Shown here one piece after another: positions 27,701 through 60,693 of a stretch of DNA of 64,000 bases. The notes beneath the pieces are model-generated. The model did not search any database. It had not been told where the DNA came from and saw only the letters and a list, made by a program, of their open reading frames with translations. This stretch comes from a virus. Position 1 is the first letter of the stretch; each line of letters opens with the position of its first letter. The position numbers were made by a program, and so were the translations under genes. The stretch spans positions 37,245-101,244 of IMG/VR virus record IMGVR_UViG_3300035703_000038. One strand, given 5' to 3'.

Positions 27701-28055
27701 TGCTTTGGGTACAGTACCACCAGAATTGATGAGACTAGACAACACTGGCAACTTAACTATTGTTGGTACTCTAACTGAGTCTTCATCCATTACATTGAAA
27801 GAAAACTTAGATCCAATTCAAGATGCGTTAGGTGCAATTACATCACTTACTGGTTACGTCTATGATCGTAAGGATGGCACAGCTAAACGTAGAGCTGGTT
27901 TGATTGCTGAAGAAGTAGAAACAATATTACCTAATGTAGTTAAGAAAGACAATGATGGTAACCCAACTGGTATTCAGTATACTAACTTAATAGCATATCT
28001 TGTTGAGTCTATTAAAGAGCTTAAAGCTGAGATTGATTTGTTGAAGGGTAGGTAG
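24723..28055 (+). CDS. Long tail fibre with S74 chaperone domain
   Basis: An 1110-residue protein. It has the MAGKLPGRALDP anchor shared with the previous gene, VGNSTVNTV-type repeats (residues about 35-80), an Ala/Asn-rich helical stretch with regular small residues (about 100-165), then a GGTLTGNLTVNATANI segment and long fibre sequence with recurring NVGIGNTxP motifs (about 520, 620 and 720). The C-terminal ~100 residues are an S74 intramolecular chaperone (SSITLKENLDPIQDALGAI, AGLIAEEVETILPNVV, YTNLIAYLVESIKELKAEID). The catalytic pair is S1021 and K1026. Self-cleavage after trimerisation is expected from the family. It is probably a main long tail fibre. Confidence 0.85.
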   Translation: MAGKLPGRALDPTTTITINNISFGDNVAVNSSVVVLGNSTVNTVVNSTAVVTPSVNVGSNVFVNTSTIHLGNSTVNTVIHTTGFTGNGAGLHSVNAAALEGNTVANILTSANTAANTLASAAFTNAASRADSAYSNAASYADTKAGQAFTNAVSYAASNTYVNNTFLPLAGGTLTGNLTVNATANIVSNLSANNVTFRGDVQIDGNLVVSGTSVTLNAASLAIEDNMIYLNNGSQVTHPDLGFAGNYNDGSYKHAGFFRDATDGVWKVYDGYTPEPDASAYIDTSNASFRIADFTANVVTAASINVVSGALTTIAAGNTTITGFANVIGVSNTDGLRVVRNAGVTSQYIELNTNASAAYVTFNSSASNPKDVYYDIPPANNTSDIFHMFRVSALDKLKVNTSVVTVNAQLSAGNTTITGLANVSGNVTVSGSYLFVGQDVRSNGQIRATGWYNTPSSSRDGPAIEIGISTHGYILSYDRDTSAYGRMYFNANSFYIQTQGTQDGTYIGNSGSTHAYFASNGNVGIGNTSPIDRLVISDTNTIIVRPNFAGTTGIPAGVLFASRNTANLTFAADSSSGAAGQGINISAYGGSQWYRGLTYNNKSGTPDLILQQDGGNVGIGNTAPAEKLVVNGLTRLGGNVVITSAGTQCKIDFGSATQTQWTDLILKTDTGTGEIFRGGSGYSSYTGTAGLNIFNSNGAAGHIGFFPGGTSSPVLLAAANGNVGIGDSSPSTRFRVSGGRSVFAANSEFYSIAVQHNSGGVGQFYIGATNSASPDMLISQTGGTEVLRIGDNGGLSLNTGVSYNNNFLINGYASMIRMYSGADAVFGHNVYGDPNSRVLKQVNTGYYASWIRMYYNQGIYFGTRNVAGTVGDTVSDPAGTTNDKMVLDIDGRLMLNTTTANTTANTILTVKGFTSNTSAFMIEGRDSNGILRTAITDRGAQNWYIMAGDGLEKGSIRYSTPGGFVGILYFDSSGLSRSDFRHVANGGFTWHAHALGTVPPELMRLDNTGNLTIVGTLTESSSITLKENLDPIQDALGAITSLTGYVYDRKDGTAKRRAGLIAEEVETILPNVVKKDNDGNPTGIQYTNLIAYLVESIKELKAEIDLLKGR

Positions 28056-28056
28056 T

Positions 28057-28884
28057 ATGGCTATCCTAAAAAATACAACAATTAACGATACTGGTTTTAT
28101 TAGGCTGCCAGTTGGCAATACAGCTCAAAGACCAACTGCTGCCAATGGTATGATGAGGTATAACACTGATACAAGTAAAGTTGAAATTTATTTGGGTACA
28201 GCGTGGAGTTTATTAGATCTCACTGGCGACCCAACAGATGTGTATGCAGGAGCTGCAGTATACGCTCCGCTTTCAAATAGTGCAATATTCAGTAGTGGTT
28301 CATTGACCGGCAATACTGTTGAAATAGTCCAATATGGATCTTACGGTACAGATGAATCAAACACCTCCGTAACAGTTCTAAAGATGAGCGGTGGGGCCCA
28401 AACACGTATACCTGCTGGTGATCCAGGATCTGCTCATACAGTTTCCGTTTGGTATAGAAGTAGCAGCGGTAGTGATTACGGTATGCTATTTTCAAAATAT
28501 CCTTCAGTTGGTACAAGCAGCTATGGTGTTGATATATGGGATGGTAATGGAAATGGAGCTATCTATTTGAATACGGGTGATGGCTCAGCTAACCCGTTCT
28601 CTGGATCAAGTGGTCATTATTTTAACCACAGTGACTGGAGACATTATTGTTTCACATTTGATGGGTCAACAGCTAGATACTATAGAAATGGTAGTTTAGT
28701 AGGTGCTGCTCCTACATACAGAACATTTTCTGGATACACGGGGCAATGGACAATTGGCACCTGGTCAGGACAATATTTTGGTCAGTATACACTTTCAGCT
28801 GGTAGATTCAGAAAGTTTGCAGTATGGCATGGCAGCGCATTATCAGCAACAGATGTGACAGCTCTTTACAACGCAGGGCTATAG
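28057..28884 (+). CDS. Short fibre with LamG-like domain
   Basis: A 275-residue protein starting one base after the previous stop. Residues 1-50 (LKNTTINDTGFIRLPVG, QRPTAANGMMRYNTDTSKVE) are a short fibre anchor repeated in the next gene. Residues about 75-275 look like a single LamG/concanavalin A-like beta-sandwich (HTVSVWYRSSSGSDYG, DWRHYCFTFDGSTARYYRNG, RFRKFAVWHGSALSATDVTA). This is a likely carbohydrate-binding tip. It is the fourth lectin-like fold in the fibre array. Confidence 0.75.
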   Translation: MAILKNTTINDTGFIRLPVGNTAQRPTAANGMMRYNTDTSKVEIYLGTAWSLLDLTGDPTDVYAGAAVYAPLSNSAIFSSGSLTGNTVEIVQYGSYGTDESNTSVTVLKMSGGAQTRIPAGDPGSAHTVSVWYRSSSGSDYGMLFSKYPSVGTSSYGVDIWDGNGNGAIYLNTGDGSANPFSGSSGHYFNHSDWRHYCFTFDGSTARYYRNGSLVGAAPTYRTFSGYTGQWTIGTWSGQYFGQYTLSAGRFRKFAVWHGSALSATDVTALYNAGL

Positions 28885-28893
28885 GAGAATTAG

Positions 28894-29601
28894 GTGGGTA
28901 GTCTCAAAAACACAACAATCAATGATACAGGATTTCTACAGCTACCTGTTGGTACCACTGCTCAAAGACCAACTGCTGCCAACGGTATGATGAGATATAA
29001 TTCCAATACTGGACTTGCAGAAGTGTATGCTGGTGGAGCGTGGAAAGGCTTAGCTCTTGGAAGTGAGTATGAAACACTCAACTTTGTTGGTAACAATGGC
29101 AACCTGACAATTACTAACAATGGAACAACATCAGTTGATATTGCTAAAACTCAGGGTAGTAACAGTTGGGATACGCAAGCATATGTAGCGACAGGATATA
29201 CAGCACCCGTAACTATGGAATTTAATAAGTTAGCGGATTCTGGTGACAATGGTGCTTCATATGCAATGATATCATGGAACGCTGATCCAACAACGGATGC
29301 AAGCTACACTTCTCTTGATCATGCATCATACCCATTCATGCAAAATGCTTACCACGTATATAATAATGGATCCAACCCGTTAAACACTGGTGCATGGTCA
29401 TCAGCCAGCAAGTTCTACTTAGTATACGCTACAAACGGATTCATGTATCACTATAATGGATCAACATTATTGTATTCCGTAAACTATGGATCAGGCACTG
29501 TCTACCTCGACACCTCATTTTATGCAGTAAACGGAACTTTCAGTAAATTTTCAAATATCAGAGTTATTAAAAAGGCCTGGAATGGTACAGCATACACTTA
29601 A
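28894..29601 (+). CDS. Short fibre paralogue
   Basis: A 235-residue protein starting with GTG at 28894 after an AGGAGAATTAG ribosome site. The N-terminal ~45 residues (LKNTTINDTGFLQLPVG, QRPTAANGMMRYNSNTG) are nearly the same as in the preceding gene, but the C-terminal domain is different: Tyr/Asn/Ser-rich beta sequence (YATNGFMYHYNGSTLLYSVN) and no clear LamG signature, although a jelly-roll fold is plausible. This is a classic anchor-conserved, tip-swapped pair. Confidence 0.65.
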   Translation: MGSLKNTTINDTGFLQLPVGTTAQRPTAANGMMRYNSNTGLAEVYAGGAWKGLALGSEYETLNFVGNNGNLTITNNGTTSVDIAKTQGSNSWDTQAYVATGYTAPVTMEFNKLADSGDNGASYAMISWNADPTTDASYTSLDHASYPFMQNAYHVYNNGSNPLNTGAWSSASKFYLVYATNGFMYHYNGSTLLYSVNYGSGTVYLDTSFYAVNGTFSKFSNIRVIKKAWNGTAYT

Positions 29602-29613
29602 TCGGAGACTATA

Positions 29614-29937
29614 ATGTCAATTACCTATACATGGAACATAACACAACTAGAGACAGCACCATCTGAAAATGGTCTAGAGCATGTAGTCAAAACAATTCAT
29701 TGGCAGTATCATGCCACAGATGGTGTACATACAGCTGACATTATAGGGAGAGCGAGTCTCGATCCCCCTGACCCTATGGCTTATACTCCATATATGGAGT
29801 TAACAAAAGAACAGGTTATTAGTTGGTTGGAAGCAAAACTCGCTCCTGATATTGAAGAGATGAAGTTAGCTGTTGACCATAAACTGCAGAATATCGTCAC
29901 ACCACCAATAACAAGACCAAGCTTACCTTGGGTTTAA
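29614..29937 (+). CDS. Conserved small phage protein near fibre genes
   Basis: A 107-residue protein with a CGGAGAC ribosome site. The pattern TYTWNITQLETAP, VVKTIHWQYHATDG, YTPYMELTKEQVISWLE and a C-terminal PSLPWV is that of a widespread small protein found beside tail-fibre genes in many marine phages. The first half is probably a beta-sandwich and the second a helix. A role in fibre attachment or folding is suggested by neighbourhood only. Confidence 0.6.
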   Translation: MSITYTWNITQLETAPSENGLEHVVKTIHWQYHATDGVHTADIIGRASLDPPDPMAYTPYMELTKEQVISWLEAKLAPDIEEMKLAVDHKLQNIVTPPITRPSLPWV

Positions 29938-29945
29938 TCAATTAA

Positions 29946-31052
29946 ATGGCAACAACAGCAAGAATAGCTAGAACGGATGTACCTGGTGCAGTCCCAAATG
30001 TAACTGATACCACAAACACATCCTACATTGAACCAGGTGCATTGTTCATCAATGTCACTGATCAAAAGCTATACTCCTCAAATGGCACGAACTATTTTCA
30101 GATTAGCGGTGTTGGTGGTGGAGGAGCTGCAAGCAACGTCTCTATCATTTCTCAGTCATTTGCTGGTAATGGCACAAACACTCAATTTACATTACCAGCT
30201 AATGGTACTACACAAACAACATTTGTATTCCTAAATGGTGTTGCCCAAGCCCCAACTACAGACTTTTCTGTATCTGGTCCAACTCTAACATTCATAACAG
30301 CTCCAACTGTCACTGATACTGTATCAGCACACATTGTTGATATTAGTAGCCCCAATGATGTTGAGTTTACGAGTAACTTCTTTACTGGTAATGGAACAAA
30401 CACTCAGTTTACGTTAGGGTCATCTCTGGCTGGCAATTCTTATGCCTTGGTGTTCCTAAATGGTGTTGCCCAGGTTCCTACTACAGATTTTGGTGTCACA
30501 GGAACAACTCTATCATTTACCACTGCTCCAGCTAATTTAGATAATATCCAGGTTGTTAGTGTTAATGCTGCCAATAACTTGGCTACAACAACATTTACTG
30601 GTAATGGTACTAACAGAGTATTCACATTAACTGACCCATCAACAACTAAAAAGACATTTGTTTATATTAATGGCGTTACCCAAGTTCCAATAAACGACTA
30701 CTATGTCACTGGTAAAACACTAACATTTGTGGTTGCTCCTGCCAATAATGATAATATTGTTGTTAGAACATTCTTTGAGAGGCTGGATGCAAGTGGTGGA
30801 AATACCCATATTCAGTTTAATGATTCAGGTGATATTGGAGCATCAGATGGGTTTACATTCAATAAAACAACCAATAATGTTACAGTAGCTAATACATTAT
30901 CTGTCGCCAACTTTAGATTTACAGCTTCTAATCCTCCAGGCTCAGCTAGTGATACAGGAGTAGCTGGTACAGTAACTTGGGATTCAAATTACATCTATAT
31001 TTGCGTGGCAACTAACACATGGAAGCGCGTCCAAATAGCAACTTGGCCATAG
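29946..31052 (+). CDS. Tail fibre with repeated FLNGVAQ modules
   Basis: A 368-residue protein. It has a major tropism determinant-type N-terminus (MATTARIARTDVPGAVPN, YIEPGALFINVTDQKLYSSN), a Gly linker, then three ~70-residue modules with NGTNTQFTL and (F/Y)(L/I)NGV(A/T)QVPxxD (about residues 75, 145 and 215). It ends with the GTVTWDSNYIYICVATNTWK motif common at fibre ends. These modules are close relatives of those in the giant fibre at 17619. Unlike the other fibres it has no separate lectin domain, so it may be a spacer or short fibre. Confidence 0.75.
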   Translation: MATTARIARTDVPGAVPNVTDTTNTSYIEPGALFINVTDQKLYSSNGTNYFQISGVGGGGAASNVSIISQSFAGNGTNTQFTLPANGTTQTTFVFLNGVAQAPTTDFSVSGPTLTFITAPTVTDTVSAHIVDISSPNDVEFTSNFFTGNGTNTQFTLGSSLAGNSYALVFLNGVAQVPTTDFGVTGTTLSFTTAPANLDNIQVVSVNAANNLATTTFTGNGTNRVFTLTDPSTTKKTFVYINGVTQVPINDYYVTGKTLTFVVAPANNDNIVVRTFFERLDASGGNTHIQFNDSGDIGASDGFTFNKTTNNVTVANTLSVANFRFTASNPPGSASDTGVAGTVTWDSNYIYICVATNTWKRVQIATWP

Positions 31053-31062
31053 TTTCTAATAA

Positions 31063-31070
31063 CATAAATA
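31063..31070 (+). promoter_or_regulatory. Late-promoter-like box
   Basis: CATAAATA, one mismatch from the TATAAATA consensus, lies in the 55-bp gap ahead of the small gene at 31108. Confidence 0.5.
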
Positions 31071-31107
31071 AGTAGGACATTCACCTTTCAGTTTAGGAAT
31101 AGACTGT

Positions 31108-31296
31108 ATGACAACGAAAATTAAACCATCTAATGTTGAAGATGCTGTATATGAAGTTACAGCTAATAACGCCAACAATCTTGGTGGTACTCCAGCCAAT
31201 CAGCATTATACGGAAGCAAGAGTAACTATTACTGGTACTGCACCAACTAATGTTGGAGCAACATCAAACGGCCATATTTGGTTAGTTTACCAATAA
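31108..31296 (+). CDS. Small hypothetical protein
   Basis: A 62-residue protein rich in Thr, Asn and Ala (VTANNANNLGGTPANQHYTE, TGTAPTNVGATSNGHIWLVY). No family was recognised. The last 25 residues resemble the closing strand of fibre modules. It sits 12 nt ahead of the Thr-rich repeat protein and behind a late-promoter-like box, so it is probably a minor virion protein. Confidence 0.5.
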   Translation: MTTKIKPSNVEDAVYEVTANNANNLGGTPANQHYTEARVTITGTAPTNVGATSNGHIWLVYQ

Positions 31297-31308
31297 TAGG
31301 CTAGGGTA

Positions 31309-34300
31309 ATGCCAGGTAAATTATTCTTCAATGACAACGGCACTCTAAGAGAAGCCGAAATCCTAAAGGTTAACGATGGCGGTATTCTCCGTAGCATTAG
31401 AGATGCCTATGTTAACCAAAATGGAACATTGAGACAGATTTTCTCTGCAACAAGAGAAACATCATTTGAAACTTCTCGTACAACTGTATTTGATACGGCA
31501 ATCACAACAACATTTGATACAACAATTGCTACAAGTAAGAGCACTACAACTGCATTTGTTACAATCTTTGATACTGGTTATGATACAAGCAAATCTACAG
31601 CAACAAACAGAAGTACAGCAACAAGTAGATCTACAGCCTATGCTACAACAAGATCTACAACTACAGTATTTTTAACCAACACTGTATTTGAAACAACAAT
31701 TGGTACAAATAGAACCACAAGCACATCTAGATCTACTACTACAGCATTTGACACCAATACTGTATTTGAAACAACTATCGACACAAATAGAGTAACGGAT
31801 ACAAGTAGATCAACAACTACAGTATTTGATACCAACACTGTATTTGATACAACAATTAACACAAATAGAAATACAGCAACAAGTAGACTAACTGATTCTG
31901 TATTTGATACTGTTGTAACAACAAATAGATCAACTCTCTCTGTATTCAATACATCAACTGTATTTGACACAACAACAGCATTTGAAACATCTTACGCCAC
32001 AACAACTATATTCAGTACAACATCTACGTTTGATACTGTTATTGATACATCAAAGAATACAGCAACTACAAAATCTACTACAACAGCATTTGACACTGGC
32101 TACGACACAAGTAGATCCACTCTTTCTACATTTGACACATCGACAGTATTCCAGACAACTACTGTATTCAATACACTAAGTGTATTTGATACAACAATTG
32201 GAACAAGCAAGTCAACAGATACAAGTAGATCAACAACTACTGCATTTGAAACAGCCTATGCAACAAATAGATCTACAATAACAACAAAGAATACTACAAC
32301 TACTTTTGATACTGTTATCAATACTACCAGAGCAACTGATACATCTCGTGGTACTACAACTGTATTCCAAACAACAACTACATTTGATACAACTATTGGA
32401 ACAACAAGAGCTACTGATACAAGTAGAGCAACAACTACTGTATTCCAGACAACTACTACATTTGCCACAACAACAACATTTATTACAACACAAGGTGGTA
32501 CAACTGTATTCCAGACAACAACAACGTTTGCAACAACATTCTACTTCAATACATCTAGACAAACAACATCAACGTTTATTACAACGTTGGGTGGTACAAC
32601 AACATTTAATACTACAACAACGTTTGGTACAACATTCTACTTCAACACAAGTAGATCTACTACATTCTACTTCAATACCAGCGTTGCTACAACGTCAACA
32701 TTTATTACATCAGCTGGTGGCATAACAACATTTATTACTACTGCTGTAGCTGGTACAAGTAGAGGAACATCAGCTGGTGGTATCACTACATTCATCACTA
32801 CAGCAGTTGGTGGTACAAGTAGAGCAACAACATTCTACTTTATTACTACATTTGGTACTTCACTGGGTGGTAATACAACATTTGCCACAACATTCTACTT
32901 CAACACAAGTAGAGGAACATCAGCTGGTGGTATCACTACATTCATCACTACAGCAGTTGGTGGTACAAGTAGAGCAACAACATTCTACTTTATTACTACA
33001 TTTGGTACATCCGCTGTTGGTGGTACAAGTAGAGCAACAACATTCTACTTCAACACAAGTAGATCTACTACATTCTACTTCAACACATCAGTTCAAACAT
33101 TCACTGTTGTAGCTGTTAATTATTATAAAGGTATTCCTATACCTTACTACATCCAAACCGCTACTACATTTGGTACAGCAGCTGGCGGTATTACAACATT
33201 TATTACTACAGTTGGTGGCATTACCAGCTTCAACACGACATTCTACTTCAATACAACTCGGGCAACTTCGGCCGGCGGTAATACAGCATTTAATACTACA
33301 TTCTATTTCAACACAAGTAGAGCAACAACATTCTACTTTATTACAACGTTCATTACTACTGCTGTTAATAATACAAGTAGAGCAACAACATTCTACTTTA
33401 ATACATCACGTGGTACATCAGCTGGTGGCATTACCAGCTTCAACACTACATTCTACTTTAACACAAGTAGAGCAACAACATTCTACTTTATTACAACGTT
33501 CAACACAACATTTTACTTCAATACAAGTAAAGCAACAACATTCTACTTCAATACATCAGTAATTACTACAACAACATTCATTACAACACTTGGTGGTATT
33601 ACAACGTTTATTACAACACTTGGTGGTACAACATCTAGAGCAACTGCAACAAGTAGGGGTACTACTTTTTACTTTAACACATCTGTTATTACATCAACAA
33701 CATTCATTACAAGTGCTGTTAACAACACATCTAGAGCAACAGATACAAGTAGATCAACCACGTTTTACTTCAATACAAGTAGATCAACAGACACAACTAG
33801 AGCAACAGACACAAGCAGAGCAACAACTACTGTATTTCAAACAACAACTGCATTTGAAACATCATACGCTACAAATAGAGCAACTGACACGTCACGTGGT
33901 ACAACCACTGTATTTCAAACAACAACGACGTTTGAAACTGCTTATGCTACAAATAGAACAACATCTACATCATCAACAACCACAACAACGTTTGACACCG
34001 TAATTGGCACAAGTAGGTCAACAACATCTGTATTCCAAACAACTACAGCATTTGAAACATCATATGTTACAAACATTTTAACAGCAACTAGTGCTGCTAC
34101 TGATACAACAAGAGTTACAGAAACTAGTAGAAACACAACGACTGCTTTCAATACCTTAGTTGCAACAAGTAAGTCAACTACATCTACATTTGACACATCA
34201 ACAGCATATGAAACAGCATATGCCACAACAAGAGTAACTGATACAAGTAGATCAACTGATACAACAATTGACACAAGTAGAACAACTGCTACTGATAGAA

Positions 34301-36921: not shown

Positions 36922-37662
36922 ATGGCAGTTCCAACAACCAGAGCTACTTTTAAAGAATATTGCCTTCGTAAACTTGGTAAGCCAGTTATTGAAATCAATG
37001 TGGATGATGACCAAGTGGAAGATCGTATTGATGAATCTTTAAGATATTATTGGGATTACCACTTCGATGGTGCCGAGAAATTATACTATAAGCACCAGAT
37101 TACATCAAATGATAAGACAAACAAGTATATAACCTTACCGGAAAATATCATCGGTGCGGTGAAGATATTCCCAGTTGGTCAAAGCATCAATACGATGAAT
37201 TTGTTTAACATTCGATACCAAATTGCATTGAATGATCTTTACACGTTGACCACTCAGTCAATGATTCCATATGTGATGGCAATGCAGCATATTCAGTTCC
37301 TAGAAGAAGTTTTAGTTGGCCAAAAACCAATCCGTTATAACAGACATAAGAATAGATTGTTTGTTGATATGGATTGGGATTTGGCTGTCGAAGGCGAATT
37401 CCTAGTTGTAGAGGCTTATGAAGTTGTGGACCCTGACACATTTGCTGATGTTTGGTCAGATCGTTGGTTAGCCCTTTATACAACAGCACAGATTAAGTAT
37501 CAGTGGGGTACAAACCTAACCAAGTTCACTGGTATGGTTCTTCCAGGTGGTGTTCAGTTCAATGGCGAGAAGATTCTAGATGATGCTAAGGCAGAAATTG
37601 AAGCACTGGAACAAGAAATGCAGACGTCCTATACATTACCAGCTTACCATATGGTAGGATAA
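36922..37662 (+). CDS. 13: gp13-like neck protein
   Basis: A 246-residue protein. The start (TTRATFKEYCLRKLGKPVIE, followed by VEDRIDESLRYYWDYHFDG) is the characteristic opening of T4-like gp13 neck (head completion) proteins. The family forms the connector ring under the portal together with gp14 and seals the filled head for tail joining. It is shorter than T4 gp13 (309 residues), as is usual in marine relatives. The stop is followed one base later by the gp14 GTG start, so translation is probably coupled. Confidence 0.9.
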   Translation: MAVPTTRATFKEYCLRKLGKPVIEINVDDDQVEDRIDESLRYYWDYHFDGAEKLYYKHQITSNDKTNKYITLPENIIGAVKIFPVGQSINTMNLFNIRYQIALNDLYTLTTQSMIPYVMAMQHIQFLEEVLVGQKPIRYNRHKNRLFVDMDWDLAVEGEFLVVEAYEVVDPDTFADVWSDRWLALYTTAQIKYQWGTNLTKFTGMVLPGGVQFNGEKILDDAKAEIEALEQEMQTSYTLPAYHMVG

Positions 37663-46116: not shown

Positions 46117-47241
46117 ATGGCCACAATTCGCGAATCATTAAAGAAGCTAGCAGAGGTTGCAAAGCCTGTTCCTGGTGATGAGCAGGAATTTGTGGCTAAG
46201 CATGGCTTGAAGGTTATGGACTTTCAAGGTAAAGATGCACTATCAGCAGAGTCACCATATGACCACATTCTAAAGAATGTTGCTGCTATCAAGAAGCCAG
46301 GTGATCCAGGTAAGGATGACCATGGCCATGATGCACCAGGTGAGTCAGAGGCTGCCTATCATATGCCAGAATCGAGAGATGAAAAGATTGCTAAGCTTTC
46401 CATGATGATGGAGGCAACAATCGACCCAAAAGAACAACAGCTAGCTGATTCATTAAAGAGTCTGCTAGCTGAGACATTCTCTATGTACTTAAAGGCCCAC
46501 CACTTCCACTGGAATGTAATGGGTCCAGACTTTGCACAGTATCACGACTTCCTAGGTGAACTATACAAGGAAGTCCATGGAGCAGTAGATATGATTGCTG
46601 AGAACATTAGAGTTCTTGGTGAGCTTGCTCCAGGCAATCTTCGTACAATGGAATCGAGTCAATACACAGACCCACATCTAATGGTTGTAGACCTAATGAT
46701 GGATAACGAAAAGGTTATTGAATCTCTAAAGGCCTCATACAAGTTAGCTGAGTCAATGGACAGACTAGGAATCTCAAACTTCCTACAAGACAGAATCACT
46801 GTCCACGAAAAGCATCATTGGATGCTTCAAGCTATTGCTGGCGTTAAGGGTGAAGAGCCAATGCAAGAGGCAAAGCAGGTTGTTGGTGTTGAAATGCACT
46901 ATAAGCATCCAACAAAGAAGCCTTTCAAGGTTACACACTTCTCTGTTCAAGATGCTGAGCGTGGCAGAAAGGAATATGAGAAGATGGGTTATAAGCTTGT
47001 TGGTAAGAAAGCACAGATGGGTGAAGAAGCCGAACAAGTAGAAGAGATGGCTCCATTGCTACCAAAGCAAAAAGTAATTGCTAAGGACTTGCTATCAAAA
47101 GAAATGCAGAAGCGTAAAGAAGAACGTGCTGCTAAAAAGCAAGCTGGTGTTCAGGGTCGCCCTTCAACAATCAGTGCAGAACTTGAAGCTATGAGAAGCA
47201 GACATCAAAGATTCAAGAAGCAGATTATCGACAAGACATGA
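46117..47241 (+). CDS. Head-locus protein with embedded Dps/ferritin-like domain
   Basis: A 374-residue protein with a GGGGATAG ribosome site. Residues 1-100 are acidic and His-rich without a known fold. Residues about 105-250 form a Dps-like four-helix domain (LLAETFSMYLKAHHFHWNVM, FLGELYKEVHGAVDMIAENI). Compared with E. coli Dps ferroxidase ligands H51, H63, D67, D78 and E82, it keeps H131, H143, D158 and E162 at the same spacing, but has Gly at 147 with Glu at 148. Residues about 265-310 form another small domain (FKVTHFSVQDAERGRKEYEK), and the Lys/Arg-rich tail may bind DNA or the core. It occupies the place of T4 gene 68 (prohead core) between gp67 and gp21. Co-assembly into the prohead is inferred from position. 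Confidence 0.75.
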   Translation: MATIRESLKKLAEVAKPVPGDEQEFVAKHGLKVMDFQGKDALSAESPYDHILKNVAAIKKPGDPGKDDHGHDAPGESEAAYHMPESRDEKIAKLSMMMEATIDPKEQQLADSLKSLLAETFSMYLKAHHFHWNVMGPDFAQYHDFLGELYKEVHGAVDMIAENIRVLGELAPGNLRTMESSQYTDPHLMVVDLMMDNEKVIESLKASYKLAESMDRLGISNFLQDRITVHEKHHWMLQAIAGVKGEEPMQEAKQVVGVEMHYKHPTKKPFKVTHFSVQDAERGRKEYEKMGYKLVGKKAQMGEEAEQVEEMAPLLPKQKVIAKDLLSKEMQKRKEERAAKKQAGVQGRPSTISAELEAMRSRHQRFKKQIIDKT

Positions 47242-49432: not shown

Positions 49433-50776
49433 ATGTTTTCTAACGAACAACTTCTAAAGAAGTGGCAGCCAGTTCTTGAACACGCTGACCTTGCACCAAT
49501 CAAGGATTCACTACGTAAGTCAGTAACTGCTCAGCTACTAGAAAATACAGAGCGCTCAATGGCAGAGAACGGCGGTGGCGCACGTGCTCTATTGGAAGCT
49601 GGTACACACACACCAACAAACGCAACTGGCACAGCTGGTTTCGGTGATGGCGTTTCAAACTACGATCCAGTTCTAATCAGCTTGGTTCGTCGTTCAATGC
49701 CAAACCTAGTTGCTTATGACGTTTGCGGCGTTCAGCCAATGACAGGCCCAACAGGCTTGATCTTTGCAATGCGCAGCAAGTACAGCTCACAAGCTAACTC
49801 AGCAACAGAAGCATTCTATAACGAAGCAAACACAGCCTTCTCAACGATTGCCCTAGGTAACTCAACAGTTAACCTACCAGGTTATCGTAACGTAGGTACA
49901 ATGCCAGGTACAGCAAACAACGCAGAGTCCAACACATATAACTGGGCCGGCGGTATGTCAACAAACCAGGCAGAAGCACTAGGTAACGCTTCAAACGCAG
50001 CTTTCGCAAACATGGCTTTCTCAATTGAGAAGGTTTCTGTTGAAGCAAAGAGCCGCGCATTGAAGGCAGAGTACACAATGGAATTGGCACAAGACTTGAA
50101 GGCAATTCATGGTCTAGATGCTGAAGCCGAGTTGTCAAATATTCTGCAATCAGAAATCCTTGTAGAAATCAACCGTGAAGTTATCCGCACAATTAACGTA
50201 ACAGCTAAGCGCGGTGCCAACACAACAACATCAGCCGGTACATTTGACCTAGACGTCGATGCAAACGGTCGTTGGTCAGTTGAGAAGTTCAAGGGCCTAA
50301 TGTTCCAAGTAGAACGCGAAGCTAACCAAATTGCCAAAGACACACGTCGCGGTAAGGGTAACATCATCCTTTGCTCTTCAGATGTTGCATCTGCATTGCA
50401 AATGGCTGGTGTTCTAGACTACGCTCCTGCTCTAAACAGCAACGCTCTAAACGTTGACGACACAGGCAACACATTTGCTGGTGTTCTAAACGGTCGTATC
50501 AAGGTCTACATTGACCCATACGTAACAGACAACTACATGACAGTTGGCTATAAGGGCGCAAGCGCATTCGATGCTGGTATCTTCTACTGCCCATACGTTC
50601 CACTACAGATGGTTCGTGCAGTTGGTGAAGATTCATTCCAGCCAAAGATTGGCTTCAAGACACGCTACGGCATGGTCGCAAATCCATTCGCAGAAGGTGC
50701 TGCATATGGTAACGGCGCTATGACAAAGGACGCAAACGTATACTACAGACGCGTCATCGTAAGCAACCTACTATAA
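49433..50776 (+). CDS. 23: gp23 major capsid protein
   Basis: A 447-residue protein. The family core (SLVRRSMPNLVAYDVCGVQP, MTGPTGLIFAMRSKY, ALKAEYTMELAQDLKAIHGL, DAEAELSNILQSEILVEINR) matches T4 gp23 (521 residues); the shorter length is usual in marine relatives. By analogy with T4, gp21 probably cleaves after E55 (RALLE|AGTHT), leaving a mature protein of about 392 residues. The codons are enriched in C-ending forms compared with the fibre genes, as expected for a highly expressed gene. It is followed by a strong terminator. Confidence 0.98.
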   Translation: MFSNEQLLKKWQPVLEHADLAPIKDSLRKSVTAQLLENTERSMAENGGGARALLEAGTHTPTNATGTAGFGDGVSNYDPVLISLVRRSMPNLVAYDVCGVQPMTGPTGLIFAMRSKYSSQANSATEAFYNEANTAFSTIALGNSTVNLPGYRNVGTMPGTANNAESNTYNWAGGMSTNQAEALGNASNAAFANMAFSIEKVSVEAKSRALKAEYTMELAQDLKAIHGLDAEAELSNILQSEILVEINREVIRTINVTAKRGANTTTSAGTFDLDVDANGRWSVEKFKGLMFQVEREANQIAKDTRRGKGNIILCSSDVASALQMAGVLDYAPALNSNALNVDDTGNTFAGVLNGRIKVYIDPYVTDNYMTVGYKGASAFDAGIFYCPYVPLQMVRAVGEDSFQPKIGFKTRYGMVANPFAEGAAYGNGAMTKDANVYYRRVIVSNLL

Positions 50777-50800: not shown

Positions 50801-50827
50801 AGGGCCGCGAAAGCGGCCCTTTTTTTT
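50801..50827 (+). terminator. Intrinsic terminator after major capsid gene
   Basis: An 8-bp GC-rich stem, AGGGCCGC (50801-50808) with GCGGCCCT (50813-50820), a GAAA tetraloop and a run of eight T. This is the strongest terminator in the window and closes the head operon. Confidence 0.95.
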
Positions 50828-50831
50828 GCTT

Positions 50832-50839
50832 GATAAATA
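50832..50839 (+). promoter_or_regulatory. Late-promoter-like box
   Basis: GATAAATA, one mismatch from consensus, 27 bp before the start at 50867 and directly after the terminator. Confidence 0.55.
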
Positions 50840-50866: not shown

Positions 50867-51070
50867 ATGGTTGACAATGCTCGATATCTAACAAGATACA
50901 CTAAAGATAAAAGAACTGCTGAGCTATATGAGCTTGCAGATGGTTATGTTATCAGGTTTATTGACAATAAAGTAATTAGAGAAGATAGAGTTATTAAAGG
51001 CAAGTCTGTCTACTATGTTGTAGATGCTTGCGAGAACTGGTGTGAAGGAATAATTGATCCATGGATTTAA
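50867..51070 (+). CDS. Small protein ahead of radical SAM gene
   Basis: A 67-residue protein with a GTGAGGTG ribosome site. The sequence forms a beta-hairpin-like middle (YELADGYVIRFIDNKVIRED) and a C-terminal VVDACENWCEGIIDPWI with two Cys. The (A/D)xAENW pattern near the end resembles small proteins widespread in marine phages. Its last 10 nt overlap the start of the radical SAM gene, so the two are translationally coupled. It could be a substrate, an adaptor or an unrelated structural protein; a peptide-substrate role is only a possibility. Confidence 0.6.
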   Translation: MVDNARYLTRYTKDKRTAELYELADGYVIRFIDNKVIREDRVIKGKSVYYVVDACENWCEGIIDPWI

Positions 51071-52086
51071 TCCCAGTTGCCATAGATGAAAATGGAATCA
51101 AAAGACATCCATTATTCAACCATCTAGTTAGAATTGATCTTGACCTAACAGGACTTTGCAATAGGCAGTGTTCATTCTGCCCAAGAAGTCTTGATGCAGA
51201 CCCTGTATATCCAAATATCAATAAACAGATGTCTCTAGAAACAGTAGAGATTATAATCAAAGAATTACTCTCGATTGACTTTAAGGGTTGGTTTGAGTTA
51301 GCTGGTAGGGGTGAGAGTACTTTACATAAGAAGTTTGAAACTATTGTGGATATGATAACATCTGCCCCAGGTAGGAAGTGGAAAGTAAGATTAACTACAA
51401 ATGGTTACGAGCTTGATGATTGGTGGAACTCACCAGTTGGTATGAAACTTGATGAACTATATCTCAATAGCTATGAATCTAAAGAGCAGTATGAGGAAAG
51501 ACAACATAAATATACTAAACTGCCAAGTGGTGGATTAGTATATCATTACTATAAGCAAGATGGATTTACTATTGACCAGATTAATAGTATGCCAGCTTAT
51601 AAAGAAAATGGTAAAAGCTGGAAGCACGCATTCAATAATAGAGCTGGCTATTTCAAGCATCAAGATAGACGTAATCAACGACTAGATTACACAAACGTTG
51701 TGACACTGCCAGGTGGTGAGAAAATAAAAGTAAGTGATTCACCATGCTGGCATCCAATGAGACAGATATTCATTGACTTTGATGGTAATTATCAGATGTG
51801 CTGTAATGATTGGTCTAGTCAGATAAAAATTGGTAATGTCCATGAAAGATCATTAATGGATATGTACTTGAATGATCCAAAGATTAATAGAATCAGATGG
51901 AGATTATTGAATAAGGATAGATCACAAATTCTACCATGTGCAATGTGTGATGATATTCAAGGTGCCACAACAAACGCCATCAATACTGTTAACAAATTTA
52001 AAACATCAAGGGCTTACAAAGAACATGTTATTCCTCTTGCAAGACTTGGCAAGGACTTTGATGAAGGGTTAAAGAATGGCAAATAA
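51061..52086 (+). CDS. Radical SAM/SPASM enzyme
   Basis: A 341-residue protein. The radical SAM cluster motif CxxxCxxC is C33, C37 and C40 (LTGLCNRQCSFCPRS), followed by ELAGRGESTLH and LTTNGYEL, as in the TIM-barrel core. The C-terminal part has a SPASM-like Cys set: C229 in SPCWHPMRQIFIDFDGNYQ, C247/C248 and C293/C296 (PCAMCDD), which would hold one or more extra iron-sulfur clusters. SPASM enzymes usually modify peptides or proteins, or act in sugar and cofactor chemistry; the substrate is unknown. It overlaps the small gene upstream and the 2OG oxygenase downstream, so the three form one unit. Confidence 0.9.
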   Translation: MDLIPVAIDENGIKRHPLFNHLVRIDLDLTGLCNRQCSFCPRSLDADPVYPNINKQMSLETVEIIIKELLSIDFKGWFELAGRGESTLHKKFETIVDMITSAPGRKWKVRLTTNGYELDDWWNSPVGMKLDELYLNSYESKEQYEERQHKYTKLPSGGLVYHYYKQDGFTIDQINSMPAYKENGKSWKHAFNNRAGYFKHQDRRNQRLDYTNVVTLPGGEKIKVSDSPCWHPMRQIFIDFDGNYQMCCNDWSSQIKIGNVHERSLMDMYLNDPKINRIRWRLLNKDRSQILPCAMCDDIQGATTNAINTVNKFKTSRAYKEHVIPLARLGKDFDEGLKNGK

Positions 52087-52696
52087 AATTATTGGTGAGG
52101 GTGTGTATAATCAACCAACAAGATTTAAAACACCATGGCCATTTTATATTGTTGATAATTTTTTGAGTGATCAATTATACACTAAGTTAATTATGTCAAG
52201 ACAACATCCTAAATTTGAAGTTGTTGATTCCTGGCATGACAATGCAATACGTACTTCATCTGATACTATACCTGGCTCTCCAACAAAAAGAGCCTTACCA
52301 TTATATCAAGACAAATCTGTAACAGAACAAATATCAGCTGAAATTAAAAATAAGCTGGCAGATATTGTAGATGACAGCTTATACTGCTTACCAGATTTGA
52401 TTAGGTGTGACCCAGGATATAGGTACACAATTCACACTGATTACTATCAAAAACTTTATTCAATAGTTGTATATCTTCACCCAACAATGTCAAATGCTAC
52501 TACGCTATTAGATGTTACTAATAATGAATATGATGTTATGTGGAGACAGAATAGAGCTTTAATATTTGCACAAGAAGATCATGGCTTACATTATTATAAA
52601 AACACAACTCAATACCCAAGACTTACATTGAATGTGTATATGACTAAGGAGTATCAAGGCTTTGGAATCGTGTATATAAATAGTTCTATACAATAG
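52076..52696 (+). CDS. 2OG-Fe(II) oxygenase-like protein, paired with radical SAM gene
   Basis: A 206-residue protein, start inside the end of the radical SAM gene. The iron-binding HxD is H120-T-D122 (YRYTIHTDYYQKLYSIVVYL). The distal His is H169 or H172 (EDHGLHYYKNT) and the likely 2-oxoglutarate-binding Arg follows in PRLTLNVYM. The double-stranded beta-helix pattern fits the prolyl-4-hydroxylase-like superfamily. The joint operon suggests successive modification of one substrate, perhaps a virion protein, since this pair lies between the capsid and a tail-tube-like gene. A late-promoter box is inside its 3' end. Confidence 0.75.
   Translation: MANKIIGEGVYNQPTRFKTPWPFYIVDNFLSDQLYTKLIMSRQHPKFEVVDSWHDNAIRTSSDTIPGSPTKRALPLYQDKSVTEQISAEIKNKLADIVDDSLYCLPDLIRCDPGYRYTIHTDYYQKLYSIVVYLHPTMSNATTLLDVTNNEYDVMWRQNRALIFAQEDHGLHYYKNTTQYPRLTLNVYMTKEYQGFGIVYINSSIQ
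52675..52682 (+). promoter_or_regulatory. T4-type late promoter box
   Basis: A perfect TATAAATA followed by G lies within the last codons of the oxygenase gene, 25 bp before the tail-tube-like gene at 52708. Confidence 0.6.
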
Positions 52697-52707
52697 GAAA
52701 CACAGCC

Positions 52708-53208
52708 ATGGCAATCCAAAAAAGCTTTCTATCACCACTTGGTTATCAATTAACTATTCAGAAGATACCAAACACTGTTATCAATGTTGTGTCAGTCAAC
52801 ATTCCTGGTATCACTGTAGAAGATAGTGAACTGCAGACGCCATTCAAGGTTATTAGATATCCTGACAAACTCGTATACAATGACCTAGTTGTAAGGTTCA
52901 AGGTTGATGAGGATATGTCTAACTATATAGAGATCTTCAACTGGATGAATCAGATTGGTAGACCAGAACAATTCAGTACGCCAAATCCCGACGCAATTGC
53001 TCCAAATGATATTTACAGTAACTATTCTTCAGACGGTACATTGCTAATTTTAAACTCAGCAAATAAAGGTAACATTGAGATTAGGTTCAAGGATCTATTC
53101 CCTGTTGTAATGAGTGATATTGAATTCACATCTCAAGAAACAGATGTAACTTATATTGATGCTACAGTGACCTTTAGAATGCTATCGTTTACAATTCACT
53201 CTGCATAG
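52708..53208 (+). CDS. gp19-like tail-tube-fold protein
   Basis: A 166-residue protein with the tube-fold signature of T4-like phages: LGYQLTIQKIPNTVINVVSV, NIPGITVEDSELQTPFKVIR, DKLVYNDLVVRFKVDEDMSN, YIEIFNWMNQIGRP and a C-terminal DATVTFRMLSFTI. It is shorter than gp19 and lies away from the tail genes. Such extra tube-like proteins probably form the tube-baseplate junction or tail initiator ring. The exact T4 counterpart (gp3, gp48 or gp54) cannot be decided by eye. Confidence 0.7.
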   Translation: MAIQKSFLSPLGYQLTIQKIPNTVINVVSVNIPGITVEDSELQTPFKVIRYPDKLVYNDLVVRFKVDEDMSNYIEIFNWMNQIGRPEQFSTPNPDAIAPNDIYSNYSSDGTLLILNSANKGNIEIRFKDLFPVVMSDIEFTSQETDVTYIDATVTFRMLSFTIHSA

Positions 53209-57312: not shown

Positions 57313-59021
57313 TTCTATTTAAGAAAGTACGCTGGAAGAATTTTCTATCGACTGGTAACAACTTCACCGATATTGATCTTACCAAGCACAAGTCAACTCT
57401 GATTGTAGGTACGAATGGTTCTGGTAAGTCCACCATTCTCGATGCTATTTCATTTGCTCTCTACAATAAGCCATTTAGAAAGATTAATAAGCCTCAGCTC
57501 ATTAACTCTATCAATGGTAAAGATCTTTGCGTTGAGCTTGAGTTTATAATTGGTAATGCTAATTATAAGATCGTTAGGGGCATCAAGCCTACTAAGTTTG
57601 AGATCTATAAGAACGATGTATTGCTCAACCAAGATGCTGATAGTAAAGACTATCAAGAGGTGGTTGAGAAGCAGATTGTCAAGATGAACCATAGAACATT
57701 CTCTCAAGTAGTTGTTCTAGGTTCTTCTACCTATGTTCCATTCATGCAACTTCCTGCTGCCCAGCGAAGAGAGGTTATTGAGGACTTGCTTGACATCCAA
57801 GTGTTCACTACAATGAATACTTTGTTGAAGGGTAAGGTGTCTGCTAACCAAGATGATCTCAAACAAGCAAAGTATGATAGTGACCTTATTGATGAGAAGA
57901 TCAATATTCAGAACAGCTATATCAACTCACTAAAGAAAGATGTTCAGAATAAAGTTGATGAAAATGTAGAGAAGATACAGCAGACTCAAGATGAGATTAA
58001 TGTATGCAATGTTGATGTCACCACAAAGAGTGGTACAATTGCAGAGAAGATGAAAGAGACAGCTAACCTTGAGAAGCTGCAGAAGAGAATGGAGAAGTCT
58101 GTTATCCTAAAGGAAAAGACTATTGATAAGCTATCTAAGTTGAATAAGGAAATAAAATTCTTCCATGACAATGATGATTGTCCAACTTGTAAGCAAGGAA
58201 TTCCTCATGAGTTTAAGGCTGAGTCTATTACAACAAAGCAGACACAAGTAACAGAGATCCAAGAAAACCTTACACTACTAGAAGAAGACTATAATAACAC
58301 TGTTACAGAGATCACTAGAATCAATGGAATCCAAAAAGAGATTCAAACCATTCAACATGATATCACAAAGCTACAATCTGAAATACAATCAAAGAAAAAG
58401 TTTATTGATTATCTACAATCAGAAAATGATTCACTACAATCTGATACAGCAAACGTTGATGCAGAAAAACAAAAACTAAAAGAACTACAAAAGCAAAAGA
58501 CAGAAGCTGAGGATAAGAAGCAGAAGCTGCTAGAGGAGTATGAAATTCTACAGGCAGCTTCTGCTCTCTTGAAGGATGGTGGTATCAAGACTAGAATCCT
58601 TCGTCAGTATATGCCAATCATTAATAAGCTGATCAATAAGTACTTGGCAGCCATGGACTTCTTTGTTCAGTTTGAGATTGATGAGCAGTTCAATGAAACT
58701 ATTAAGTCTAGATTCAGAGATGAGTTTAGTTACAATTCATTCTCAGAAGGTGAGAAGATGAGAATTAACCTAGCTGTTCTCTTTACATGGAGAGCTATTG
58801 CCAAGATGAGAAATAGTGCTGCCACTAACTTACTTGTCATGGATGAAGTGTTTGATAGTTCTCTTGATAGCAATGGTACTGATGAATTCTTAAAGATCAT
58901 CCAGACCCTAACTGCTGATACTAACACGTTCATTATTAGTCATAAGACTGATCAGTTGTTTGATAAGTTCCATAATGTTATTAGATTTGAAAAGACAAAG
59001 AATTTTTCTAGAATCGTATGA
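57309..59021 (+). CDS. 46: gp46 Rad50-like ATPase
   Basis: A 570-residue SMC-like protein, near T4 gp46 (560). Walker A GTNGSGKST is at residues 34-42. Long coiled coils flank a zinc-hook CPTC (about 291-294). The ABC signature SFSEGEKMRINLA is near 477 and Walker B LLVMDEVFD near 508. It powers the gp47 nuclease in end resection. The stop overlaps the next gene's ATG by 4 nt, linking it to the oxygenase cluster. Confidence 0.96.
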   Translation: MILFKKVRWKNFLSTGNNFTDIDLTKHKSTLIVGTNGSGKSTILDAISFALYNKPFRKINKPQLINSINGKDLCVELEFIIGNANYKIVRGIKPTKFEIYKNDVLLNQDADSKDYQEVVEKQIVKMNHRTFSQVVVLGSSTYVPFMQLPAAQRREVIEDLLDIQVFTTMNTLLKGKVSANQDDLKQAKYDSDLIDEKINIQNSYINSLKKDVQNKVDENVEKIQQTQDEINVCNVDVTTKSGTIAEKMKETANLEKLQKRMEKSVILKEKTIDKLSKLNKEIKFFHDNDDCPTCKQGIPHEFKAESITTKQTQVTEIQENLTLLEEDYNNTVTEITRINGIQKEIQTIQHDITKLQSEIQSKKKFIDYLQSENDSLQSDTANVDAEKQKLKELQKQKTEAEDKKQKLLEEYEILQAASALLKDGGIKTRILRQYMPIINKLINKYLAAMDFFVQFEIDEQFNETIKSRFRDEFSYNSFSEGEKMRINLAVLFTWRAIAKMRNSAATNLLVMDEVFDSSLDSNGTDEFLKIIQTLTADTNTFIISHKTDQLFDKFHNVIRFEKTKNFSRIV

Positions 59022-59566
59022 TATGGTCTAAGCAATACTTCAACAGTAGTTGGGTTGAGAATATACACAAAGTGTGCGAAAAGTATCCAGATGAACCTGG
59101 TGATTCGCATGTGTTATCATTAGATGGTAATACTGTAATGCCAGAAAACTATTTGATGAAAATTATTTCCTCTAAGAAAGAACCTCAAATAGTGGAGGCA
59201 TTGAAAGATATTGCAATGGCTGCAAACGAACGAATGTTTGGTTTTAACCTCTGGTTTGATATTGGTGCATTCCAATACACAACATATAAATCAGAACTGC
59301 AAATGGAATATGACTGGCATAGTGATTCAGTATGGGTCGTTAAGCCAGTTGTTCCCAAACTTACAGTAATTGTTGGCTTGACAGACAAGGACAATTATCA
59401 AGGTGGTGATTTTGTTCTTGCTGGTGGCAAAAAAAATAAAACTATCAAGTTAACTGCTGGTGAGGCAATAGTATTTCCATCGATTGCACTGCATAAGGTA
59501 ACGCCAGTAACAAGTGGAACAAGAAACACTTTAGTTGCTTGGTTTAAAGGACCAAGGTGGGTTTAA
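59018..59566 (+). CDS. 2OG-Fe(II) oxygenase (P4H-like), first of the cluster
   Basis: A 182-residue protein, start overlapping the gp46 stop. Iron ligands are H101 and D103 (YDWHSDSVW) and distal H159 (IALHKVTPV). R169 (GTRNTLVAWF) is the likely 2-oxoglutarate anchor, with GGDFVLAGG and a closing GPRWV. The fold type matches single-domain prolyl-4-hydroxylase-like oxygenases common in marine T4-like phages. The substrate is unknown. It lies in tandem with two relatives, each starting within a few bases of the previous stop. Confidence 0.85.
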   Translation: MIWSKQYFNSSWVENIHKVCEKYPDEPGDSHVLSLDGNTVMPENYLMKIISSKKEPQIVEALKDIAMAANERMFGFNLWFDIGAFQYTTYKSELQMEYDWHSDSVWVVKPVVPKLTVIVGLTDKDNYQGGDFVLAGGKKNKTIKLTAGEAIVFPSIALHKVTPVTSGTRNTLVAWFKGPRWV

Positions 59567-59567
59567 A

Positions 59568-60137
59568 ATGATACCTAAGATTGTAGTAACACCAAATTAC
59601 TTTCCATCCACATGGTGCGATAATGTTAACAGCTGGATCATGGATAATGTACCAGCAGATCCATCGTTTGGTAAGACTGGAGTAAGAAGATGTGATGTTA
59701 GATTCTTATCATCTAACATGAAACCATTTGATGGCGTCTTCAAATCACTAATCGATTACACAAAAGCTAATATTGATAAGCTAGGCATTGATGTAGATTA
59801 TCAGATTGATGGAGCAATCCAACATATTACATACCTACCAGGCCATGGTGTGGGCTGGCATGATGATACAATGAATTATAAAATGGCTCTAAACAATCCT
59901 AGATATAGCAACCTTAAAACTGACAGAAAGCTTTCCCTAACTGTGATGCTATCAGATTCGACTGACTATGAGGGTGGTGATTTTATTTTTGAGCCTGGCT
60001 ACCCACTTCCAGCTAAAGTAGAAGGTAAGGGTACAGTCGCTTTATTTACATCATACACTCAACATAAGGTAGAACAGATAACATCTGGTGTAAGAAACAT
60101 TCTGTTTATCTTTATTACTGGTCCAACTTGGAAATAG
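59568..60137 (+). CDS. 2OG-Fe(II) oxygenase (P4H-like), second of the cluster
   Basis: A 189-residue protein from ATG 59568, one base after the previous stop. Iron ligands are H98 and D100 (VGWHDDTMN) and distal H166 (TQHKVEQIT); R176 (GVRNILFIF) is the probable 2-oxoglutarate ligand. GGDFIFEPGYPLP and the ending GPTWK match its neighbours. It contains CDVRFLSSN near residue 45, with a counterpart CETRFVTFN in the third copy, so copies two and three are the closer pair. Confidence 0.85.
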   Translation: MIPKIVVTPNYFPSTWCDNVNSWIMDNVPADPSFGKTGVRRCDVRFLSSNMKPFDGVFKSLIDYTKANIDKLGIDVDYQIDGAIQHITYLPGHGVGWHDDTMNYKMALNNPRYSNLKTDRKLSLTVMLSDSTDYEGGDFIFEPGYPLPAKVEGKGTVALFTSYTQHKVEQITSGVRNILFIFITGPTWK

Positions 60138-60138
60138 T

Positions 60139-60693
60139 ATGTCCATCATAACTATTAAGTCAGCTATTTCAAAGGACCTACTTGACAGTTGGGATTCCAC
60201 AACCGAACGAATACCGACACGCCAAGGTCAGACTGTTGATAGTGGTTTGGAATCGGGTATATCAAACGATAAAAGTGTGAGGTCCTGCGAGACCCGGTTT
60301 GTAACTTTTAACAAGCACAGAAAATTTTATCTTGATATTCTTAATAACATTTATCCATTTATCGACTTCTATCATTATGCATTTGATGTTGAACTCTATA
60401 GAGTGCTAGAGATACAACATGTAACGTATTTTAAAGACGATCATTATGTGAGACACGTTGATACTATCTTTAACAACAAAACATCACGGCAAAGAAAAAT
60501 TAGTTTAGTTTTAATGTTATCAGATAGAAGTGAGTATAGTGGTGGTGAACTTATCATTAATGATGAGCCTGTTGATCTTGAGAAAGGTGATATTGTTATG
60601 TTTAAGCCAACAACATTTCACAGCGTTGAGAAGGTTCAGCAGGGCGTGAGAAAAACTTTAGTGATGTGGGCTCTGGGTCCACATTGGAAATAG
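60139..60693 (+). CDS. 2OG-Fe(II) oxygenase (P4H-like), third of the cluster
   Basis: A 184-residue protein one base after the previous stop. Iron ligands are H106 and D108 (VRHVDTIFN) and distal H161 (TFHSVEKVQ); R171 (GVRKTLVMW) is the probable 2-oxoglutarate ligand. LVLMLSDRSEYSGGELII and GPHWK follow the family pattern. All residues needed for activity appear to be kept, so this is not a decaying copy. Confidence 0.85.
   Translation: MSIITIKSAISKDLLDSWDSTTERIPTRQGQTVDSGLESGISNDKSVRSCETRFVTFNKHRKFYLDILNNIYPFIDFYHYAFDVELYRVLEIQHVTYFKDDHYVRHVDTIFNNKTSRQRKISLVLMLSDRSEYSGGELIINDEPVDLEKGDIVMFKPTTFHSVEKVQQGVRKTLVMWALGPHWK

Follow-up and report, generated by a model that had tools for sequence, protein, structure and literature searches.

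A BtrN-like twitch-domain radical SAM enzyme paired with a 2OG-Fe(II) oxygenase in a putative late gene unit behind the capsid gene of a T4-like virus

The stretch of DNA analysed here (the window) comprises 64,000 nucleotides (nt), positions 37,245 to 101,244 of the IMG/VR virus record IMGVR_UViG_3300035703_000038, and forms the terminal part of this 101,244-base record. Behind the capsid gene it carries three overlapping genes, encoding a small protein (SMALL), a radical S-adenosylmethionine (SAM) enzyme and a 2-oxoglutarate (2OG)-Fe(II) oxygenase, which are the subject of this report. A first-pass annotation made from the sequence alone had placed these genes between gp23 and a tail-tube-like gene, under a late-type box, and the open reading frames (ORFs), the Pfam and PHROG matches of the bordering genes and the box itself bear this arrangement out, as follows (aa, amino acids):

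49433..50776, plus strand: gp23 major capsid protein (Pfam Gp23, E 3.9e-148), the upstream boundary
50801..50827, plus strand: terminator-like hairpin with an 8-bp stem, a GAAA loop and a T tract, read in the sequence between gp23 and the three-gene unit
50832..50839, plus strand: GATAAATA, a variant of the T4-type late promoter box, 35 nt upstream of SMALL
50867..51070, plus strand: SMALL, an ORF of 67 aa
51061..52086, plus strand: BtrN-like twitch-domain radical SAM enzyme of 341 aa, a predicted alcohol dehydrogenase (Pfam SPASM and Radical_SAM, BtrN profile, fold)
52076..52696, plus strand: 2OG-Fe(II) oxygenase of 206 aa with an intact HxD...H...R set (2OG-FeII_Oxy_3, fold, catalytic residues)
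52675..52682, plus strand: TATAAATA, the late box of the tail-tube gene, at the end of the three-gene unit and 33 nt ahead of 52708
52708..53208, plus strand: tail-tube protein (PHROG 45, E 9.4e-32), the downstream boundary

SMALL overlaps the radical SAM gene by 10 nt, and the radical SAM gene overlaps the 2OG gene by 11 nt. A TATAAATA box of its own stands ahead of the tail-tube gene, so that the three genes appear to be separate from it and are most likely a late transcription unit in their own right; late expression, expected from the first inspection, is supported by the box at 50832. The exact TATAAATA box occurs nine times on the plus strand of the window (8217 to 60729) and never on the minus strand, each copy lying 23–73 nt ahead of a start codon, which gives a very clean late-promoter map. 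The promoter check covered 19 of the 28 contigs of clade A, the T4-like group of closest relatives described below. A NATAAATA-form box stands 34–43 nt upstream of SMALL in all seven relatives in which SMALL directly follows gp23, and no such box was found within 90 nt before SMALL in the 12 relatives with an inserted HAD-like gene. This HAD-like gene between gp23 and SMALL (L005:5169-5792) gives a weak Acid_phosphat_B match, and 18 copies of it were called in clade-A loci. For the stem at 50801..50827 the scanner reported the opposite-strand orientation only. The ratio of nonsynonymous to synonymous substitution rates (dN/dS) is about 0.1 for SMALL and below 0.1 for the radical SAM gene, dS being saturated for the latter, and these low values indicate that both are real genes.

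The 341-aa protein matches Pfam SPASM above the cut-off (E 4.7e-11) and Pfam Radical_SAM with 30.5 bits in one search and 29.0 in another, the cut-off being 29.5. Its SAM-cluster motif CX3CX2C is formed by C33, C37 and C40. The auxiliary cysteines follow as C229-X12-G-X4-C247 and then C293-X2-C296, with no later cysteine. The twitch domain, CX9-15GX4C-gap-CX2C with one auxiliary cluster, and the seven-cysteine, two-cluster SPASM motif are defined in passages of PMC6231123; beyond the SAM motif, the phage protein has cysteines only at positions 229, 247, 248, 293 and 296, short of the seven of that motif. On this reading of the sequence, the part called SPASM by Pfam is a twitch domain with one fully ligated auxiliary cluster, as in BtrN. 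The two superfamilies named in the first-pass annotation were retained, and its SPASM domain is refined to a twitch domain with one auxiliary cluster.

BtrN is also the nearest solved structure. A profile search returned its entries 4m7s and 4m7t at E 1.1e-15 and 1.6e-15, and the next match at E 1e-4. The AlphaFold2 model of the enzyme (mean predicted local distance difference test score, pLDDT, 85; predicted template modelling score, pTM, 0.86) aligns with BtrN 4m7t at Z 20.5 over 232 residues and 2.9 Å; the matches that follow, RiPP (ribosomally synthesised and post-translationally modified peptide) enzymes, the best at 13.6, and antibiotic-pathway enzymes, reach at most Z 13.6. A hidden Markov model (HMM) alignment places R194 on BtrN R152, and C229, C247, C293 and C296 on C169, C187, C232 and C235. 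R194, these four cysteines, C33/C37/C40 and E85 are unchanged in all 41 phage and bacterial representatives, which were drawn for tree and alignment from 187 genes of suitable length and score. The model contains no RiPP recognition element, as the barrel begins at about residue 24 with only a short helix before it. Among NCBIfam models, no RiPP model came above its cut-off, viperin reached 26.2 bits against a cut-off of 180, MoaA also stayed far below its cut-off, and heme synthase was absent from the matches. Passages of PMC9012708 describe BtrN as oxidising the alcohol group of an aminocyclitol to a ketone in a two-electron step, its fully ligated, low-potential auxiliary cluster being the likely electron acceptor. 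Judged by sequence and model, the phage protein would work like BtrN, yet it is not BtrN itself, because its neighbours and a substrate-side residue differ.

The partner, the 206-aa oxygenase, matches Pfam 2OG-FeII_Oxy_3 just below the cut-off (E 6.6e-5) and retains H120, D122, H172 and R182 in all 14 aligned rows. Its predicted structure (pLDDT 91) has the 2OG oxygenase fold, a double-stranded beta helix, with 6n1f (Z 16.6) and PolD 9blq (16.2) as the closest matches, prolyl hydroxylases at 15.4 or less and AlkB types at 14.5 or less. Since AlkB-type enzymes score alike, the predicted fold does not tell the substrate. The IMG/VR close-relative scan with the single 2OG protein returned no relative, and a scan with an alignment profile returned 60 loci. 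Another family of such enzymes is present in the window at 59018-60693, after gp46, as three tandem 2OG oxygenases (the two tested belong to PHROG 61).

The relatives of the radical SAM enzyme were collected by an IMG/VR close-relative scan (57 loci) and by a profile scan (the best 80 of 235). Clade A (28 contigs, T4-like) shows the order gp23, optional HAD-like gene, SMALL, radical SAM gene, mostly 2OG gene, and tail tube, with one SPASM gene per record in the six records searched. In clade B (25 contigs) the radical SAM gene belongs to a replication region, which also holds, as named by reading, a DNA polymerase and a PhoH-like gene. Some clade B loci have a second, diverged radical SAM gene, then what is, by reading, a short-chain dehydrogenase gene, for which Pfam gave no match in the single copy tested (L111); a JmjC_2 oxygenase is found further along in L111 and other clade B loci. 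The three T4-like members of clade C have the radical SAM gene between another head-region gene and a UvsW-like helicase, and a carbamoyltransferase further on. In clade D (n = 19) it stands mostly between spanin-like genes and a Coq4-like gene, often with a 2OG gene next; the row of radical SAM, Coq4-like and 2OG genes, seen at L132:7986-10016 and elsewhere in the clade, is flanked by spanin-like and endolysin-like genes. Only seven of 50,697 named phage records match the radical SAM enzyme, at about 26% identity, and phage S-SCSM2R has an aminotransferase immediately upstream of its relative.

The pairing of radical SAM and 2OG genes is genuine outside the circle of close relatives as well and recurs in unrelated phages. 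The 24 clade A and D loci, which had supplied the profile, were left out of the 60 loci of the 2OG scan. In the fetched flanks (up to 4 kb), a radical SAM gene was found near the 2OG relative in 16 of the 36 loci that remained, compared with 2 of 80 in the control (Fisher 4e-8), which was one 2OG family, the PHROG 61 type of the window, represented by the best 80 of 292 relatives, a few clade-A contigs among them. The difference persists among groups formed at 70% identity (9/17 vs 1/40; Fisher 2e-5) and with strong hits only (above 100 bits; 12/36 vs 0/80). Four of the 16 positives (L186, L199, L200 and L201) rest on distant radical SAM matches of 18–38 bits, the BtrN-type gene of L187 was detected only with stop-to-stop frames, and L208 was kept among the 36 though its 869 bp could hardly show a partner. 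On the radical SAM tree the pairing label changes at least six times, L211 being labelled negative although an oxygenase match exists there in an uncalled gene. Strict co-inheritance was considered and rejected: an oxygenase of this type is absent within 3 kb in all 25 contigs of clade B and absent from clade C (0/3) and the other loci (0/6). Within clade A, 6 of the 25 contigs with enough downstream sequence have no oxygenase. Of the two findings that the first-pass annotation had named as speaking against its reading, one, the two genes scattered separately in genomes, is partly borne out by the splitting of the pair in clade B.

Some paired loci contain Capsule_synth, FkbM, cytidylyltransferase or nucleotidyltransferase genes, some of these next to what look, on reading, like tail or fibre genes. 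L192, L193, L203, L205 and L210 have a Capsule_synth-like gene; in most of them a BtrN-like radical SAM gene and a 2OG gene are adjacent, and L192 and, by reading, L193 have an FkbM methyltransferase. A further radical SAM gene of another kind, next to tail-like genes, is also found in these cassettes.

Bacterial relatives were found at 29 loci, 12 of which were read. Directly after the radical SAM gene comes a short-chain dehydrogenase in 4/12 (L069, L070, L071 and L090) and an aminotransferase in 3/12 (L067, L068 and L072). CMP-sugar-type cytidylyltransferases lie upstream in L068 and L070 (by Pfam) and in L090 (by shared cluster), a Gfo/Idh oxidoreductase precedes the radical SAM gene in L083, and a glycosyltransferase follows it in L075; L073, L074 and L079 showed no partner among those tested with Pfam. 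A ketone product would suit short-chain dehydrogenase and aminotransferase partners, and these neighbours are the company expected for a ketone-making enzyme in sugar metabolism, with the reservation that these are raw counts for common families.

SMALL has no match in Pfam, NCBIfam or PHROG. It is conserved in clade A, where it is linked to the radical SAM gene and is 66–82% identical to the window copy; the other radical SAM clades yielded no copy of it. Diverged homologues in other phages (L229-L236) stand between primase-like and ThyX-like genes in the loci read, with no radical SAM match in the fetched flanks. Given that these homologues have no radical SAM gene near them and that the other clades gave no SMALL, a role as dedicated precursor peptide is unlikely.

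We propose that the two enzymes tailor one non-peptide metabolite or glycan, most likely of sugar or cyclitol type, a BtrN-like dehydrogenase acting together with a hydroxylase, and in our judgement this proposal has about an even chance of being right. The radical SAM chemistry is its best supported part, the shared substrate less so and the sugar class least. In the reaction that we infer, SAM bound to the [4Fe-4S] cluster would give rise to a 5'-deoxyadenosyl radical, which would abstract a hydrogen from the carbinol carbon of the substrate. Arg194 may help to remove the proton of the hydroxyl group, and a ketone would result once the second electron has passed to the fully ligated auxiliary cluster. 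The 2OG oxygenase would insert a hydroxyl at the same or a neighbouring position of the presumed common substrate, the order of the two steps being possible either way. In this phage the pair would be produced late in infection from its own promoter. Any glycan substrate would be host-derived, since the clade-A phages appear to lack a glycan pathway of their own: neither Glycos_transf_2 nor Capsule_synth was found in six clade-A records, including the present one and one of 188 kb, these two being the only glycosyltransferase families searched.

Several observations weigh against this proposal. The position of BtrN E189 is occupied by N, D, H or Q and by Glu in none of the 41 representatives, so that the substrate should differ from that of BtrN. 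The part ascribed to Arg194 leans on the BtrN structure paper, in which R152 is reported to be the base that deprotonates the substrate hydroxyl. The two glycosyltransferase families are missing from the clade-A records, the oxygenase is missing from clade B, and the Coq4-like third gene of clade D would fit quinone or isoprenoid chemistry just as well as sugars. The short-chain dehydrogenases and aminotransferases of the bacterial loci are, as said, common genes. Peptide dehydrogenases exist too, anSME being described as one in a passage of PMC6231123.

One alternative is that the substrate of the pair is a protein, with the radical SAM enzyme acting like anSME on a side-chain hydroxyl and the oxygenase like a prolyl hydroxylase, with a virion protein, SMALL or a host protein of the EF-Tu type as the target. 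We consider it unlikely. The late box beside gp23, the linkage of SMALL to the radical SAM gene in clade A and the absence of the two tested phage glycosyltransferase families would fit such a role, as would the proximity of the 2OG fold to peptide and protein prolyl hydroxylases, including 4iw3, solved with EF-Tu (Z 14.1), although AlkB types and PolD score alike or better. However, BtrN stands 7 Z units above any RiPP enzyme, no RiPP model passes its cut-off, and a barrel starting near residue 24 leaves no room for an N-terminal peptide-recognition domain. In other phages the relatives sit in the replication or the lysis/tail region, and SMALL has relatives that occur without a radical SAM gene and was itself not found in other clades. 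The virion-protein or peptide modification system suggested by the first-pass annotation is therefore disfavoured, because the enzyme lies outside the capsid region elsewhere and SMALL has relatives without it; its nearest enzyme by both sequence and fold is BtrN, an alcohol dehydrogenase of sugar type. That annotation had held that clustering with nucleotide or sugar enzymes would speak against a peptide role, and of these two classes it is the sugar type with which the enzyme groups.

The two genes could instead be independent cargo under one promoter, a radical SAM dehydrogenase with an unrelated 2OG enzyme, which we hold to be distinctly unlikely. It would account for the clade-A contigs without oxygenase (6/25) and for clades B and C, which lack this type entirely, and also for the uneven divergence within clade A, where the 2OG proteins are 31–44% and the radical SAM proteins 66–82% identical to the window copies; 2OG genes are, moreover, plentiful in such phages, with three more in the window. 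The repeated adjacency in separate clades, with at least six label changes on the tree, and the enrichment over another 2OG family argue against it. Improbable, in our estimation, is a radical SAM enzyme acting on a nucleotide, a tRNA or a DNA base with the oxygenase acting on the same base. AlkB-type folds are among the close oxygenase matches, the clade B gene lies inside a replication region, and the nucleotide-acting viperin and MoaA share the radical SAM fold, but viperin types reach only Z 12.1 and MoaA 12.3, compared to 20.5 for BtrN, and their NCBIfam models score far below cut-off. All four auxiliary cysteines are present in the phage enzyme, whereas MoaA, according to a passage of PMC9012708, keeps one auxiliary iron open for the substrate.

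The proposed tailoring of a sugar- or cyclitol-type compound may be taken one step further, to a phage relay from C-H through C-OH to C=O, an extension that we regard as possible though not probable. The target would be a glycan or metabolite of the host, or of the virion: the 2OG oxygenase would hydroxylate an unactivated carbon in it, and the BtrN-like enzyme would oxidise the resulting carbinol to a ketone, so that an O2-using step would be coupled to an O2-sensitive radical SAM step, sometimes followed by a short-chain dehydrogenase or aminotransferase, in several unrelated kinds of phages. If true, T4-like phages would use this relay late in infection to rewrite the host surface or pool. 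We know of no such relay in any phage. With an arginine that never varies, an oxygenase partner that recurs and bacterial neighbours that use ketones, the predicted BtrN-type alcohol oxidation becomes a reaction open to assay.

Further features of the record were noted in passing. The window encodes, at 46117-47241, a 374-aa head-cluster protein with a ferritin-like (Dps-type) domain (Pfam Ferritin, E 5.7e-20), which is conserved in clade-A relatives, and its 64 kb contain no tRNA genes. Outside the window, a TylF-type macrocin O-methyltransferase (E 4.9e-41) is encoded at L156:3905-4654 (record coordinates), with another methyltransferase gene after it; apart from the TylF type, no sugar-type enzyme was noticed in the 37 kb of the record that precede the window. 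L157:8832-15659 (record 27331-34158), likewise outside the window, encodes a 2,275-aa fibre-like protein with 31% Thr, 12% Ser and short S/T-rich repeats.

Radical SAM genes are widespread in environmental phages, without an assigned role there. They are known from T4-like environmental genomes (PMC5332604), pelagimyophages (PMC7029224) and Campylobacter phages (PMC2853527), with no established function in the passages concerned. Some such genes appear as heme synthase (ahbD) in a passage of PMC7288430 on viral metabolic genes that are conserved globally, and the survey PMC9301287 calls that function speculative. If the ahbD-labelled phage genes belong to the BtrN-like family, that label would be wrong and alcohol oxidation of the BtrN type would be the better hypothesis. 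In the library searched, BtrN with phage returned nothing, and radical SAM with bacteriophage and twitch domain returned only a survey listing Fe-S proteins; among the papers listed for radical SAM, oxygenase, phage, SPASM and glycan, none named the radical SAM/2OG pair. The variant as interpreted here is new, and the bare annotation of radical SAM genes in phages was already known.

Among known systems, PolD (9blq), the Pseudomonas putida prolyl hydroxylase (4iw3) and 6n1f have the fold and the HxD...H...R residues in common with the phage oxygenase, at only 7–15% identity. Campylobacter phages CP220 and CPt10 encode a relative of the radical SAM enzyme, 26% identical and named BtrN protein in two deposits. 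They differ in context: the relative is one of several consecutive radical SAM genes accompanied by a glycine amidinotransferase, as a passage of PMC2853527 describes, and the annotation of its neighbourhood shows no capsid gene and no 2OG gene. The enzymes anSME, ChlB, SuiB, CteB and SkfB, the last four being RiPP SPASM enzymes, belong to the same superfamily and share the idea of an auxiliary cluster, but they match at Z 13.6 or less and, SkfB excepted, have two auxiliary clusters where the phage enzyme has one and no recognition domain. SpeY (7wzx, 7wzv, 7x0b), a twitch radical SAM dehydrogenase by its Protein Data Bank (PDB) title, is clearly further away than BtrN (Z 12.9). Unlike BtrN, the butirosin 2-deoxy-scyllo-inosamine dehydrogenase (PDB 4M7S, 4M7T), the phage enzyme is phage-borne, has 341 aa and 19% identity, an insertion at about 199–222 before the first auxiliary cysteine and, in the window copy, N at the position of E189; it has no aminocyclitol or butirosin neighbours and is accompanied by SMALL, the 2OG gene, gp23 and the tail tube. 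With BtrN it nevertheless shares a barrel with a twitch domain, an auxiliary cluster held by four cysteines and an arginine aligned with R152, and BtrN remains its nearest relative in fold and sequence.

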